Assembly: GCF_012272815.1 (NCBI RefSeq)
Contig: NZ_JAAWWL010000001.1
Span: forward strand, 770,154-834,153
Direction: 5' to 3'
DNA length: 64,000 bases
Source: Croceivirga thetidis
GTDB taxonomy: Bacteria > Bacteroidota > Bacteroidia > Flavobacteriales > Flavobacteriaceae
The notes under the pieces were generated by a model. That model made no database searches, had not been told where the DNA came from, and saw only the letters and a list, made by a program, of their open reading frames with translations. Positions 40,744 to 44,210 of the stretch are shown one piece after another. Made by a program: the position numbers and the translations under genes. Positions within the stretch are counted from its first letter, which is position 1, and each line of letters opens with the position of its first letter.

Positions 40744-40958
40744 AGTATTCTTGATTAAAAAAATTATTAAATATGGATTGAAAATTACCTTACGGCAGGG
40801 ACTAACAAAGATTCAAATTTGTAACCAAATTGTAAAGTTTGTTTTAGCTAAACAATTCCAAAGTTTTTAACACGGATCGTTGAAATGTAGGTTCATAAGT
40901 GAATAACAGTAGGCTCATGGAAAAAAGAAAAAAACGAACCTTAAAAATACCCTTCAAC

Positions 40959-40990
40959 AAAAAAAGACCCTCGCATAACGACGGTCTTTT
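40959..40990 (-). terminator. Intrinsic terminator on the minus strand between the peptide/RNA locus and nrdB
   Basis: On the minus strand AAAAGACC (40990-40983) pairs with GGTCTTTT (40969-40962), with a loop of about 13 bases, and seven T follow (to 40959). The polarity marks the end of a minus-strand transcript coming from 41263. Confidence 0.8.
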
Positions 40991-41000
40991 GAAATAACAA

Positions 41001-41142
41001 GTGCGGCCTTGTCACCTTAATTATTCAGCTTAGTTAGTTGGGTAGTTCCCCCGAAACCCGACTCAACTTATTGGCCATCACAAAAATTGGTGACTTAAAC
41101 TATTTTGCATATACATACTTTTAGCATGTTGGCCGGCCGCAC
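41001..41142 (-). ncRNA. Candidate structured RNA (3' region of the small-peptide transcript or independent RNA)
   Basis: The segment folds into nested helices. A closing stem GTGCGGCC (41001-41008) pairs with GGCCGCAC (41135-41142), 8 bp perfect. Inside it GTCACC (41011-41016) pairs with GGTGAC (41089-41094). Within this a long hairpin has AGTTGGGT (41036-41043) with ACCCGACT (41056-41063), extended by TTC/GAA around a CCCC loop. A small hairpin CATAC/GCATG lies at 41114-41128. GGTGAC can alternatively pair with local TCAC at 41079-41082, so a switch is conceivable. The minus orientation is chosen because a T7 terminator follows at 40959-40990. No Rfam family could be tested; a 6S-Flavo-type RNA, Flavo-1 or an nrd leader element are alternatives. 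Confidence 0.55.
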
Positions 41143-41155
41143 ATTTACTTTTCAG

Positions 41156-41263
41156 CTATTTTATTGCTACTGTTTCTGTCTCAATGTTACTATTGTTTTC
41201 AACTGAAGCTGCAACAATTACAACTACAAGTGTGAGCAAAAACATGATAATACATTTTTTCAT
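41156..41263 (-). CDS. Small exported peptide (35 aa), candidate signalling peptide
   Basis: An ATG at 41263 opens a 35-codon frame ending TAG at 41156. The product has a basic start (MKK), a hydrophobic core from about residue 4 to 20 (CIIMFLLTLVVVIVAAS) and a short acidic polar tail (VENNSNIETETVAIK). An A-x-A-like site would release a mature peptide of about 16 residues; alternatively it stays as a single-pass membrane peptide. It is the only sensible frame on the strand dictated by the downstream terminator. A direct-repeat operator and a TAnnTTTG-like element lie upstream, and a structured RNA follows 13 bp after the stop. It is divergent from the LytTR/TPR-kinase pair, suggesting the peptide is a ligand or output of that system. 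This is inference. Confidence 0.55.
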   Translation of the reverse strand: MKKCIIMFLLTLVVVIVAASVENNSNIETETVAIK

Positions 41264-41287
41264 GGGGTGCTTGTTTGGTTACGGATT

Positions 41288-41295
41288 CGAAATTA
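41288..41295 (-). promoter_or_regulatory. Possible -7 element of the small-peptide gene
   Basis: On the minus strand this reads TAATTTCG, one mismatch from the Bacteroidota consensus TAnnTTTG. It lies 24 bp before the peptide start codon and 28 bp from the direct repeats, a spacing that suits an activator bound upstream. Confidence 0.35.
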
Positions 41296-41323
41296 ATTTA
41301 AAACCAACCCTCATGAATCCACA

Positions 41324-41358
41324 TTGTATAAATGGAAGAAAATCTTGTATAAATGGAA
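41324..41358. promoter_or_regulatory. Two perfect 14-bp direct repeats with 21-bp period: candidate LytTR operator
   Basis: TTGTATAAATGGAA occurs at 41324-41337 and again at 41345-41358, identical, with a 7-bp spacer. Start-to-start distance is 21 bp, two helical turns. LytTR regulators bind paired direct repeats on one DNA face with this period. The site lies between the divergent LytTR gene and the small-peptide gene, about 29 bp upstream of the peptide's putative -7 element. Confidence 0.6.
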
Positions 41359-41492
41359 ATGACCACTTTTTTGTTCAATTTGCACTATTTACAGCTTTAG
41401 CAACCATTTGTACCGCGTTTGCAGCAATCGGCACAAAAAACAGCACCCAAAAGAAGAAATAAACCTACTTTTAAAGTTCAACAAATTTGACT

Positions 41493-42227
41493 ATGCTTGA
41501 AGCTGTATTAGTGGATGACGAAGCAAAAGCCTTAGAAAGTTTAAGTTGGGAATTGACAAATCTTAGCGACGAAGTAAAGGTTGTAGCTTCTTTTACCGAT
41601 GCCAATAAGGCACTGGATTATCTTAATATCAATACTCCAGATTGTTTGTTTCTTGATATTGAAATGCCCATAATGGATGGTTTTCAATTCATTCGGAGTT
41701 TAAAAAACAAGAATTTTCCTGTTGTTATAACCACAGCCTATAATCAGTACGCACTCAAAGCACTTAAAAATGAAGCGGTAGATTATTTGTTGAAACCAAT
41801 CGATACCGACGATTTACATGACACCATAGCCAAAATCAAAAAATTCAACTCTAAAAATCTAACGGCTGAAAGATTAGAGAGCATTCTTCTAAATTTTAAT
41901 GCCCGTTCCATAAATAAAAAAATCACCATAAATACAGATGGGAAACTATTGTTTTTAGAGAGTGATGAAATTCTGTATGCAGAATCTGACGGCAACTACA
42001 GCACTATTTATTTAGAAGACGGTCAAAAACTCGTACTAACTAAAAAACTGAAAGAAGTAAACGTCATGCTCCCATCGGATAACTTTTTTAGAATTCACAA
42101 TTCTTTTGTTGTCAACTTGGGTAAAATCAAAGAATTTTTAAAAACAGATGGCTATGTAATTCTTAAAAGCGGCCACAAAATTCCAGTATCGAGACAAAAG
42201 AAATCTGATTTCTTAGATTTGCTTTAA
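41493..42227 (+). CDS. LytTR-family response regulator
   Basis: This 244-residue regulator has an N-terminal receiver domain with the acidic pair in LVDDEAK, phospho-acceptor Asp55 in CLFLDIEMP, Thr in VITTAYNQYALKAL and Lys in YLLKPID. A C-terminal LytTR DNA-binding domain follows (about residues 140-244: ILYAESDGNYSTIYLEDG, LPSDNFFRIHNSFVVNLGKI and HKIPVSRQKK). A TTG six bases upstream of the ATG is also open, but the ATG at 41493 gives the normal receiver start. It is followed 12 bp later by its sensor kinase gene. The direct repeats 135 bp upstream have the geometry expected for its own binding site. Confidence 0.95.
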   Translation: MLEAVLVDDEAKALESLSWELTNLSDEVKVVASFTDANKALDYLNINTPDCLFLDIEMPIMDGFQFIRSLKNKNFPVVITTAYNQYALKALKNEAVDYLLKPIDTDDLHDTIAKIKKFNSKNLTAERLESILLNFNARSINKKITINTDGKLLFLESDEILYAESDGNYSTIYLEDGQKLVLTKKLKEVNVMLPSDNFFRIHNSFVVNLGKIKEFLKTDGYVILKSGHKIPVSRQKKSDFLDLL

Positions 42228-42239
42228 GCCTTAGCATGA

Positions 42240-44210
42240 ATGTTCCCAAAGACCACACTAACTAACTTTTCTAGAAACATTTTAAAATATATCACCCAAC
42301 TTGGGTTGGTTTCTAGTCTACTATTTACAACAAAAGGACTGGCTCAAGAAGCCCCACCTGAGTTCACTTCTTCTGTTCAGCGCTTAATTGAACTTAAACC
42401 TACATCATATCAGGCATTTTATGATGAGCTCAAACCGTTTCGGTACGATACTGTTTTAATGAACGCATTTGTAAAAAGAAGTATCGAGACTGATTATCCT
42501 GAAGGACAATCATTCGCGCTAAATCAGCTAGGAACAAAATTCAGAAATCTTTCACAGTATAATCGTGCAATTGAACTACATAGAAGAGCCTTACGTTTAG
42601 CAGAACAGGTAGACAATGTTGAACTGAAAGTTCTAAGCCATAATTTAATGGGCGTTGCCTACAGACGTATGGACGCCATTAAGTCTGCATTAGATAATAA
42701 TCAAGAAGCCCTACGTTTAGCAGAGTCTGAAAAAGAGCCTACCCGTCACCTAAAAAGACATATCAATATTGCCTACAATAGCATTGGAAATCTCTACCAG
42801 ACTCTTGAACAATATGATTTAGCGATTGAACAATTTAAAAAGGCCTTACAGCTTGAAACCGATTTAAACAACAAGCTGGGAATGGCCATAAACAATCAAA
42901 ACATTGGAGATTGTCTGGAGCAAAAAGGTGATTTAAAACAGGCTCTGGATTATTATAGAAAGTCGTTGGCTTATAATGAAGAAATCAATTCTGACTATGG
43001 CCTACTAATTTGTAAAACTAGTATCGCGCAGATATACTTAAAGCAAGATTCTCCGAGGCCAGCTCTTGAAATTTTGGAGTCCCTATCTGATTTAATGGCC
43101 AAAAATGGAGATGATTTCATAAATACTTGGGTTTTGAGCAACTTTGGTTGGGCCCACACCCAAACAGGGGATTTCGATATTGCAAAAAAATACCTTGACA
43201 GCAGTTTAACCGTAACGAGAAAAAGTCAGCTGCCGAATATGGAGACCTTGACTCTAAGACGTTTGTCAGAACTCGAAGCGCGAAAAGGTAATTTCAAGGA
43301 TTCCAGAGACTTTTTGCAAGCATCTTACGAAGTCAAAGAACAAATAACCAATGTTCAAAATCGAAGTTATATCCATGATGTAATTGAAAAATATGAATCG
43401 GAAAAAAAAGATACCGAAATAGCCAGTCTTGCAAACGAAACCGAGCTTATAAAGTTGCGCCTTAGAAGAAATCAAACAAGAATACTGATAGGCATTTTAA
43501 TGATTGCACTGGTAAGTACCATTTTATTTGTTATGTACCGGCAGTATAAATCCAATAATGAGAAAAAAGTACTCTCTTTGGAACAGAATATGCTGCGCAG
43601 TCAAATGAATCCGCATTTTCTTTTTAACTCTTTAAATTCCATCAAACTTTACATTATAAATAATGATCAAAAGAAGGCGGTTCATTATTTGAATAAATTC
43701 TCAAAATTGGTTCGGAAAATTCTTGAAGGATCTTCAATGAAAGAAATATCATTGGAAGAGGAATTGGAGACGGTTGATCTTTATTTGAACATAGAAAATA
43801 TTCGATTTTCAGAGGAAATTAATTTTCAAATAAAGGTTGATAATAATATTGATGTAGAACGTATAAAAATTCCTTCATTGGTTCTTCAACCATTTTTAGA
43901 GAATGCCATCTGGCACGGTCTTTCATCAAAAGAAGGAGATAAAAATCTACTTGTTCAAGTTTCAAAGGATGATGATTACCATTTAAAAATCAGCATCAAA
44001 GACAATGGGGTTGGCAGGGCAGCATCGGAAATTGCAAAAGAAAAAAGGGTTTTAAAAAGAAAATCGGTTGGTATTGACATAACTAAGGAACGTCTGGCCA
44101 ATTTCTCAAAAGACTTTCAAAATGATTTCGACGTATCCATCATTGACCTTTATGATCATGGCAACAAGCCTGCAGGTACGGAGGTGATTTTAAGAATACC
44201 TACGATTTAG
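42240..44210 (+). CDS. TPR sensor histidine kinase (LytS/His_kinase type)
   Basis: The 656-residue protein has an N-terminal signal or anchor (about 15-35, ending GLAQ), a large TPR region (about 75-385, e.g. YNRAIELHRRALRLAEQ and YDLAIEQFKKALQLETD), and one membrane helix at about 412-432 (ILIGILMIALVSTILFVMY). A cytoplasmic His_kinase domain follows, with His459 in SQMNPHFLFNSLNS, the N-box LQPFLENAIWHGLS and the G-box SIKDNGVGRA. With the export signal the TPR array would face the periplasm, where it could bind peptides. It forms a two-gene operon with the LytTR regulator, which it presumably phosphorylates. The exported small peptide encoded divergently is an attractive candidate ligand. 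Confidence 0.93.
   Translation: MFPKTTLTNFSRNILKYITQLGLVSSLLFTTKGLAQEAPPEFTSSVQRLIELKPTSYQAFYDELKPFRYDTVLMNAFVKRSIETDYPEGQSFALNQLGTKFRNLSQYNRAIELHRRALRLAEQVDNVELKVLSHNLMGVAYRRMDAIKSALDNNQEALRLAESEKEPTRHLKRHINIAYNSIGNLYQTLEQYDLAIEQFKKALQLETDLNNKLGMAINNQNIGDCLEQKGDLKQALDYYRKSLAYNEEINSDYGLLICKTSIAQIYLKQDSPRPALEILESLSDLMAKNGDDFINTWVLSNFGWAHTQTGDFDIAKKYLDSSLTVTRKSQLPNMETLTLRRLSELEARKGNFKDSRDFLQASYEVKEQITNVQNRSYIHDVIEKYESEKKDTEIASLANETELIKLRLRRNQTRILIGILMIALVSTILFVMYRQYKSNNEKKVLSLEQNMLRSQMNPHFLFNSLNSIKLYIINNDQKKAVHYLNKFSKLVRKILEGSSMKEISLEEELETVDLYLNIENIRFSEEINFQIKVDNNIDVERIKIPSLVLQPFLENAIWHGLSSKEGDKNLLVQVSKDDDYHLKISIKDNGVGRAASEIAKEKRVLKRKSVGIDITKERLANFSKDFQNDFDVSIIDLYDHGNKPAGTEVILRIPTI

Follow-up and report, generated by a model that had tools for sequence, protein, structure and literature searches.

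Layout of the locus

The window analyzed here, a 64,000-nt stretch of the Croceivirga thetidis genome, holds a locus at which a predicted sensor and its DNA-binding partner lie back to back with the ORF of a tiny putative membrane peptide and, attached to it, a folded RNA not cataloged before, an arrangement shared with other marine relatives of Flavobacterium. On the plus strand, a response regulator (41493-42227) is followed by a sensor kinase (42240-44210). On the minus strand, an ORF for a 35-aa membrane peptide, MKKCIIMFLLTLVVVIVAASVENNSNIETETVAIK (41156-41263), identified by its reading frame, conservation and codon selection, is followed by a structured RNA (RNA1; 40985-41155) and a hairpin resembling an intrinsic terminator (~40959-40990); a LytTR-type direct repeat separates the divergent genes. 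A preliminary description of this DNA had proposed all of these elements, including the 35-codon gene divergent from the regulator and kinase, and each was located where it had been placed. Every part is conserved among relatives, and the layout is therefore not due to chance. The earlier view of the locus as one regulatory unit is supported; the accompanying idea, that an exported peptide signal closes a loop through the TPR sensor, fared worse, as the evidence on the peptide makes clear.

The regulator consists of a receiver (PF00072, 83.7 bits) and a LytTR DNA-binding domain (PF04397, 75.3 bits), both above the Pfam cut-offs, and Pfam likewise finds TPRs and a His_kinase domain in the kinase, as the preliminary description had it. 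That description also placed the TPR array in the periplasm. The one segment above the hydropathy threshold, a strong transmembrane candidate at residues ~411-437, does lie between the TPRs and the kinase domain; the N-terminal signal-like stretch falls below the threshold used, so the periplasmic location is only probable. The best NCBIfam match of the kinase is FimS (NF053520), at 101.8 bits far under the cut-off of 600 that would assign it to that family. Its TPR and His_kinase architecture, with a single strong transmembrane segment, also sets it apart from the polytopic AgrC-type kinases, and no AgrB- or AgrD-like protein was noticed among seven proteins around the locus run through Pfam.

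A predicted operator linked to the peptide and the RNA

The putative operator (41325-41356, minus strand) is made of two CCATTTATACA repeats 21 bp apart; identity extends to 14 of 14 positions (41324-41337 and 41345-41358), so the perfect 21-bp-period repeats reported earlier are real. In the whole 3.7-Mb genome, CCATTTATACA-N10-CCATTTATACA occurs as one exact copy and one site with three mismatches, and a reversed-pattern control returned 0 matches. Among 102 compared loci, which are mutually related and include at least seven genomes counted twice, the operator lies upstream of the peptide in every case and scores 16-22 of 22 matches, versus 10-17 in 4080 mononucleotide shuffles. At all 102 of these putative sites the best spacing is 21 bp, close to two turns of the DNA helix, as expected for the paired direct repeats of LytTR operators.

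Which of the divergent genes do the repeats serve? A predicted -7 box, TAATTTCG (41288-41295, minus strand), lies 29 nt past the proximal repeat and has five of the six consensus bases of TAnnTTTG, the -7 element of Bacteroidota primary-sigma promoters as quoted in PMC7366714. The best offset is 29-30 nt at 75/102 loci, and a box with at least 5/6 matches is found 27-33 nt after the repeat at 97/102, versus 8/102 and 6/102 in two control windows. Minus-strand transcription is expected to begin near 41280, the same position that had been guessed before. On the regulator side, no -7 box at a fixed position was found among 65 loci, and the autoregulation at the operator suggested by the preliminary description is not supported. 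Two genomes provide a natural experiment: they keep peptide, RNA and repeats and have no kinase pair within 6 kb (L130, L131), and the 700 nt preceding their relocated kinase pairs (L176, L177) are free of the repeats. Judged by these predicted sites, the repeats stay with the peptide and the RNA where the kinase pair has moved. The LytTR pair most likely acts on the divergent peptide/RNA transcript; the repeats could also serve repression.

A conserved structured RNA

RNA1 was delimited with a covariance model (R1) that had the window sequence among its inputs. At its heart is an 18-nt hairpin, GGTTTCGGGGGAACTACC (41041-41058, minus strand), that 40 of the 299 Flavobacteriaceae genomes carry once each, without a single change; a reversed control of the pattern matched in 7/299. 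All 40 genomes carry the regulator at no less than 73% identity, and at 38 of the 40 loci RNA1 adjoins the same two-component system. The model has 47 pairs with 90.8% of cells paired, and 26 pairs have changed on both sides, compared with 11.5 in shuffles and 7-16 in slid controls. Folding gives z = -3.1 for the presumed transcript (40955-41280) and z = -2.35 when only the RNA part (40990-41150) is taken; these scores and the covariation bear out the structured RNA noticed earlier. No Rfam family reaches its gathering score in the window, and E-value searches with the window stretch, six relatives and two further loci (L128, L181) gave weak matches far under gathering scores, or none, which speaks against a known family; for RNAIII in particular, there was neither a curated covariance-model match nor a credible weak one. 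Codon-level selection acts on the ORF (below) and covariation is seen in the non-coding part; the two would make a dual-function RNA if they lie on one transcript.

The minus-strand terminator of the preliminary description is present as a hairpin with a T-run, with one G.G mismatch and a core of -14.1 kcal/mol; a simple consensus scanner, which allows no mismatch, counts 0 terminators at 40959-40990. Across the RNA1 loci, a strict script finds terminators at 7/40 and a looser one at 26/40 (at -10 kcal/mol or below), versus 5/40 in shuffles. From promoter and terminator only, we infer that the ORF and RNA1 share one transcript. This terminator also bears on the notion that RNA1 is a leader or riboswitch of the ribonucleotide reductase genes nrdBA: in the window nrdB follows RNA1 on the same strand, and 26/40 loci have it within 6 kb, but in the window the hairpin and ~215 bp intervene, and at 14/40 loci RNA, peptide and operator remain together with no nrdB within ~6 kb. 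This linkage without nrdB leads us to reject the riboswitch, which has next to no probability. Long peptide-to-hairpin distances at some loci suggested a non-coding RNA of ~1 kb, an idea dropped because an additional exported protein, 177-199 aa long, is encoded at 22 of the 37 such loci; two of these 22 proteins were run through Pfam and gave no match.

The membrane peptide

The peptides follow a common plan: M-basic-basic-Cys, ~17 hydrophobic residues, and a variable tail. Cys4 is present in 101/104 (some genomes counted twice). With pN/pS at 0.25 in frame and at 0.79 and 1.73 in the other frames, the ORF is under purifying selection; the C-terminal tail is less constrained (0.46, versus 0.25 for the membrane part). 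The peptide is present at 39/40 RNA loci; the exception is in Croceitalea (L048/L143), where kinase, regulator and RNA are kept and a recognizable peptide is absent. The initial peptide pattern missed two loci in which the second residue is not basic (L135 and L140, recovered by their reading frames), and the same pattern may overlook peptides of other form at further loci.

Is the peptide a ligand of the kinase? The preliminary description envisaged that it is exported, processed and bound by the periplasmic TPR array, thereby activating its own transcription. The gene neighborhood fits, and periplasmic TPR sensors are suspected peptide binders in the case of FimS, according to PMC11053733. 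However, only the tail could serve as the mature, exported form, and it is missing in four of 65 peptides (L025, L028, L030, L032) whose kinases are as close to that of the window (56-58%) as those of their neighbors; these tail-less forms weaken the case for an exported signal. Since, in addition, one RNA locus (Croceitalea) and distant lineages keep the kinase without a recognizable peptide, a role as kinase ligand is disfavored by these comparisons, and we regard such a loop as improbable.

The distant lineages comprise 46 loci with regulators 54-67% identical. They keep the kinase and, mostly, the repeats (at least 17/22 matches in 39/46), together with another small RNA or other genes; the peptide pattern appears in 2/46, both unlike the peptide, and at 15/46 a different structured RNA, with no recognizable peptide, stands behind the same kind of operator. 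Loss of both ORF and repeats from relatives that retain the kinase pair had been named beforehand as evidence against the loop; the ORF is indeed missing from these distant relatives, and the repeats are not.

These observations also bear on a peptide effector, a small membrane protein that would target the envelope, a transporter or the kinase itself, while the RNA would be the 3' end of its mRNA, there for stability or processing. The selection seen in the membrane part, the near-invariant Cys4 and the presence of the peptide at almost all RNA loci speak for this; yet the RNA hairpin, with its 18 invariant nt, is far better conserved than the peptide, it persists without the peptide in Croceitalea and, in a 6-G version, in another genome (G183, locus L180), and 15 of the distant loci just described pair the same kind of operator with another RNA and no recognizable peptide. 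We consider a peptide effector unlikely. What seems indispensable in the output is RNA1, not the peptide tail.

A proposed RNAIII-like output

The reading we prefer, with a probability slightly above one half (about 0.55), is that the TPR kinase and LytTR regulator act through the repeats to activate an RNAIII-like transcript, which would join a small membrane peptide to a regulatory RNA. It builds on what can be read from the sequence itself: the parts and their conservation, the predicted RNA structure, purifying selection on the peptide, the promoter geometry and the fact that the operator stays with the peptide/RNA operon. An envelope or periplasmic cue sensed by the TPR kinase would lead to phosphorylation of the regulator, which would bind the 21-bp-period repeats and activate the divergent minus-strand promoter, whose -7 box follows the proximal repeat at 29-30 nt. 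A single transcript would then encode the small inner-membrane peptide, followed by the structured RNA and ending at the terminator. RNA1 would be the main regulatory output, acting in trans by base pairing through its invariant UUUCGGGGGAACUA loop, and the peptide may provide a second, lineage-specific one. Two genomes with a close regulator and no RNA1 count against this explanation: in G168 the operator (19/22) precedes another gene, and G302 has no operator (13/22).

The layout recalls agr P3/RNAIII of Staphylococcus, in which a LytTR regulator and a sensor kinase are likewise found with direct repeats upstream of a divergent promoter, and the transcript, as we suppose for the one described here, combines the coding sequence of a very small, membrane-active peptide with a regulatory RNA. 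RNAIII encodes delta-haemolysin and its loops are C-rich, whereas the RNA1 loop is G-rich and RNA1 has no homology to RNAIII in Rfam searches. Compared with the arrangement of AgrA, P2/P3 and RNAIII outlined in PMC4227749, the kinase here is a TPR/His_kinase protein rather than AgrC, the phylum is another, and the operator, as far as can be judged, serves the RNA side only. A second likeness, to FimS-FimR of Porphyromonas gingivalis, lies in the periplasmic TPR sensor, which is probable here. We know of no peptide or RNA linked to FimS-FimR. Its target is a fimbrial gene cluster, and the cue of FimS, the best-studied periplasmic-TPR kinase in Bacteroidota, is unknown according to PMC11053733. 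At the present locus, one kinase goes with an operator that is almost unique in the genome and with a conserved output of its own; a single-gene deletion, followed through its effect on a single RNA, can therefore reveal the cue of such a kinase.

Rfp18 and other Flavobacterium sRNAs (PMC9723704) are, like RNA1, structured sRNAs of Flavobacteriaceae; the comparison is by description only, Rfp18 comes from a different genus, and the word LytTR is absent from that text. Searches of open-access papers, among them on LytTR with small or structured RNAs and TPR kinases in Bacteroidetes or flavobacteria, found no equivalent system. In Bacteroidota, to our knowledge, the signal pathway upstream of a regulatory RNA is known in few cases. 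If the proposed reading is true, LytTR pairs came to be arranged with a peptide-bearing regulatory RNA outside Firmicutes as well.

A second RNA and loop pairing

The second operator-like site in the genome, with three mismatches, precedes another conserved RNA (RNA2) with the same geometry and is proposed to drive it; Rfam matches to the RNA2 region are weak and far under gathering scores, or absent. RNA1 and RNA2 would thus add two families, both without an Rfam match here. Their loops could form a 9-bp kissing interaction, a length that 16 and 21 of 5000 shuffles also attain. The pairing is broken at L293 and L301, though their genomes (G318 and G249, respectively) carry RNA1, and for that reason the interaction is not claimed.

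The 3' loop of RNA1 has another potential partner: a 5' leader motif complementary to it, GUUYCCCC, occurs at 19/52 loci of one group (16 distinct genomes), whereas 41 control loops average 0.6 such loci and never exceed 4. Such 5'-3' pairing is reminiscent of type I toxin-antitoxin modules, in which a hydrophobic peptide is induced by stress and its mRNA is kept inactive, by 5'-3' pairing in the case of hok and by antisense RNA in the case of tisB. The peptide is small and hydrophobic enough for such a role, but it is encoded in a single copy beside the same two-component system at 38/40 loci, selection acts at the protein level, and the 50 Muricauda/Croceivirga-type loci, to which the window belongs, show no enrichment of the leader complement; we give a toxin-antitoxin-like module little credence. 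Because the leader complement is confined to one group and the RNA1-RNA2 pairing is broken in two genomes, no target of the loop is established. A broader version of the preferred reading is offered as tentative and rather doubtful: in Flavobacteriaceae, one TPR-kinase/LytTR pair might run an RNAIII-like circuit of RNA1 (with its G-rich loop and membrane peptide) and RNA2 (with a CUCCCGACAAAGUUCCGGCAUUGA loop), neither of them in Rfam, whose loops could pair with each other within a genome; in one group of genera, the RNA1 loop could also pair with the 5' leader of RNA1. The RNAs would form the conserved core of this circuit, while peptides and secreted proteins come and go.

Locus layout and the LytTR operator

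The window, drawn from a Croceivirga-like member of Flavobacteriaceae, contains every element named in the preliminary description, each where it was placed. In plus-strand order these are nrdB (-), a terminator-like hairpin (-), a structured RNA (RNA1; 40985..41155, -), a 35-aa ORF (41156..41263, -), LytTR-type direct repeats (41325..41356), a LytTR regulator gene (41493..42227, +), a TPR kinase gene (42240..44210, +) and a DUF3109 gene (-). Used as query against genome contigs, the kinase yielded 63 loci; the search also took in 11 genomes of the genus. Regulator, kinase, and DUF3109 lie side by side in nearly all loci; none of the four query genes is matched in L082 or L083, and only some of them in L076-L080.

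Which of the two divergent transcripts does the operator serve? It was compared across 102 loci (65 with a pattern-matching peptide from the regulator regions plus 37 more; at least seven genomes count twice, and loci without a pattern-matching peptide were left out). The operator pair CCATTTATACA/CCATTTATACA scores 16-22 of 22 matches in these loci vs. 10-17 in 4080 shuffles, and the best repeat spacing, among 12-33 compared, is 21 bp in 102/102. On the peptide side, the promoter consensus TAnnTTTG (the -7 box) has its best offset from the proximal repeat at 29 or 30 in 75/102 loci; at least 5/6 of the box is present within offset 27-33 in 97/102, vs. 8/102 and 6/102 in two control windows. 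The regulator-facing side has no fixed TAnnTTTG-type box in 65 loci. The operator centre would stand roughly 50-55 nt ahead of the expected start, compared with near -60 of P2 and P3 for the Staphylococcus aureus AgrA repeats (PMC4227749). Two genomes (G321 and G113) carry the kinase and regulator at a different site: the repeats remain with the peptide and RNA1 (L130, L131; 18 and 21 of 22), and they are not seen beside the relocated regulator (L176, L177; best 14 of 22). The window's own genome holds the exact operator pair once, plus one site with three mismatches. Because the repeats stay with peptide and RNA when the pair moves, the fixed box lies on that side only, and the exact pair is single in the window's own genome, the peptide/RNA transcript is most likely the one that the operator serves.

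These parts and their wiring match, by analogy, the working of agr P3/RNAIII: a LytTR pair, a divergent LytTR-controlled promoter, and a transcript with a tiny membrane peptide and a structured RNA. The locus is nevertheless not classed as an agr member, because its kinase is of another type and RNA1 has no RNAIII match. The kinase resembles Porphyromonas gingivalis FimS, yet falls far below the family cut-off; FimS has a periplasmic TPR sensor with an unknown cue (PMC11053733).

A structured RNA and a small membrane peptide

RNA1 lies downstream of the peptide ORF. Its hairpin GGTTTCGGGGGAACTACC is identical in 40/299 family genomes (34/236 genera), in single copy each; the search tolerated one mismatch and no mismatched copy turned up. 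The reversed pattern, run as a control, hit 7/299. Six helices with 47 pairs are supported when 23 long-form RNAs are aligned; 90.8% of cells are paired (70.9% in the weakest helix). Double-sided changes occur in 26 of the 47 pairs, vs. a shuffle mean of 11.5 and 7-16 for slid structures, over which an advantage is built in since the structure was hand-drawn on one member (L128); a six-pair long-range helix has double changes at every pair. A covariance model trained on 39 RNAs, the window's own included, finds one copy in its own genome and matches in 10/296 genomes of the order, every one in the same family; an Rfam search gave no match. L175 (strong match), L172 (weak, truncated where the contig ends) and L180 (weak) widen the RNA1 family. 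In L180 (G183) and L175 (G235), the invariant hairpin has six G, not five; that of L180 is without a peptide and sits within a short terminator-like helix.

A divergent ORF of the form M[KR][KRNS][CS]..LF precedes the regulator in 65/70 regions. Five were missed: L031 has too little sequence, L069 carries the peptide after all with a GTG start, L077 and L078 are distant Tenacibaculum loci, and in L048 the pattern search saw no peptide ORF upstream of the regulator. The peptide is present in 39/40 loci collected by RNA1 alone; the exception, L143, shares a Croceitalea contig with L048. Residue 4 is Cys in 101/104 peptides (some genomes counted twice). For 26 equally long peptide sequences, pN/pS comes to 0.25 in the membrane part vs. 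0.46 in the tail; read in the other two frames, the membrane part gives 0.79 and 1.73. Because pN/pS is lowest in frame and in the membrane part, translation of the ORF is very likely, and its membrane part very likely matters most. At L025, L028, L030, and L032, tail-less peptides stop after 22-23 residues. The earlier proposal that the exported peptide binds the kinase, closing an autoregulated signalling loop, may hold where the peptide has a tail, but it cannot be what the pair does in general.

Variable cargo and recurrent RNA

What, then, recurs behind the operator? Every one of the 40 RNA1 genomes carries the regulator, with at least 73% identity. Four further genomes carry it at about 70% or above: RNA1 is present in G235, G070 shows the 5' part of RNA1 at a contig end, and in G168 and G302 no RNA1 was found. 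Among 46 more distant loci (regulator 54-67%), repeats at ≥17/22 are present in 39 and the peptide pattern in two, neither resembling the peptide; 15/46 match another short RNA, its loop containing GGGA, and have no recognisable peptide (L178, L179, L181, L184, L186, L191, L195-L200, L203, L205, L209); the operator ahead of this RNA and the -7 geometry are of the same kind. Of the 43 distant loci with ≥16 operator matches, 23 have ATATTT or ATATTA beginning at offset 30 or 31. In 22/37 peptide-bearing loci (within L115-L150), the gene of an exported protein (177-199 aa; motif resembling GVFGFAD.....E.PFF), absent from the window, lies between peptide and RNA1; two of the 22, searched in Pfam, gave no match. 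The peptide and the secreted protein are thus cargo that varies, and what recurs behind the operator, though not in every case, is an RNA.

The distant short RNA has a GTGGGGA-type loop and the motif GCTATTA. In L181, L186, L187, L190, L191, and others, a conserved AGTTTTAGTTAGTTTAGTTAATTATT upstream of nrdB is followed by a terminator-like hairpin.

Other genomes have an operator of this type ahead of other exported proteins or of a related regulator itself (L183, L224, L268, L273). The related LytTR-type gene stands directly after the operator in L268 (G152) and L273 (G138), a placement that suggests autoregulation in other lineages. Several further three-mismatch operator sites, with neither RNA nor fixed box seen, may be due to chance.

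A second RNA and candidate pairing partners

The three-mismatch site of the window's own genome, outside the window (G000:C1:1231048-1231250; L193 1501-1712, L267), precedes a second conserved, structured RNA (RNA2). A -7-like box follows this site at the offset seen for the main operator. The RNA2 motif CTCCCGACAAAGTTCCGGCATTGA occurs in 28/299 family genomes (control 0), and its hairpin covaries, with double changes at 10/12 pairs. An operator at ≥17/22 lies ahead of RNA2 in 18/28 vs. 1/840 shuffles. RNA2 genomes have the regulator in 26/28 and RNA1 in 19/28; the Fisher tests on these co-occurrences ignore phylogeny. RNA2 also contains AGTTAGTTAAGTTGG, similar to the AGTTTTAGTTAGTTTAGTTAATTATT upstream of nrdB.

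In the window's own genome, RNA2 closes with a terminator-like hairpin that has the RNA1 10-mer TTCGGGGGAA repeated in its loop; such a loop was not seen in most of the other 27 RNA2 genomes. RNA1 and RNA2 loops have nine complementary bases in common, a complementarity broken in L293 and L301. In a 52-locus group (the 37 peptide-bearing loci above plus 15 Maribacter-type ones from the regulator regions, including some short forms and L153, the window's own copy), a GUUYCCCC-like 5'-leader stretch complementary to the RNA1 loop (score ≥19) is found in 19 loci from 16 distinct genomes, whereas 41 control loops gave 0.6 loci on average and four at most; no excess shows in the other 50 loci, which are of Muricauda/Croceivirga type and include the window. 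Both complementarities are leads to candidate pairing partners of the RNA1 loop. Examples of the leader motif are seen in L128, L152, L065, L115, and L121.
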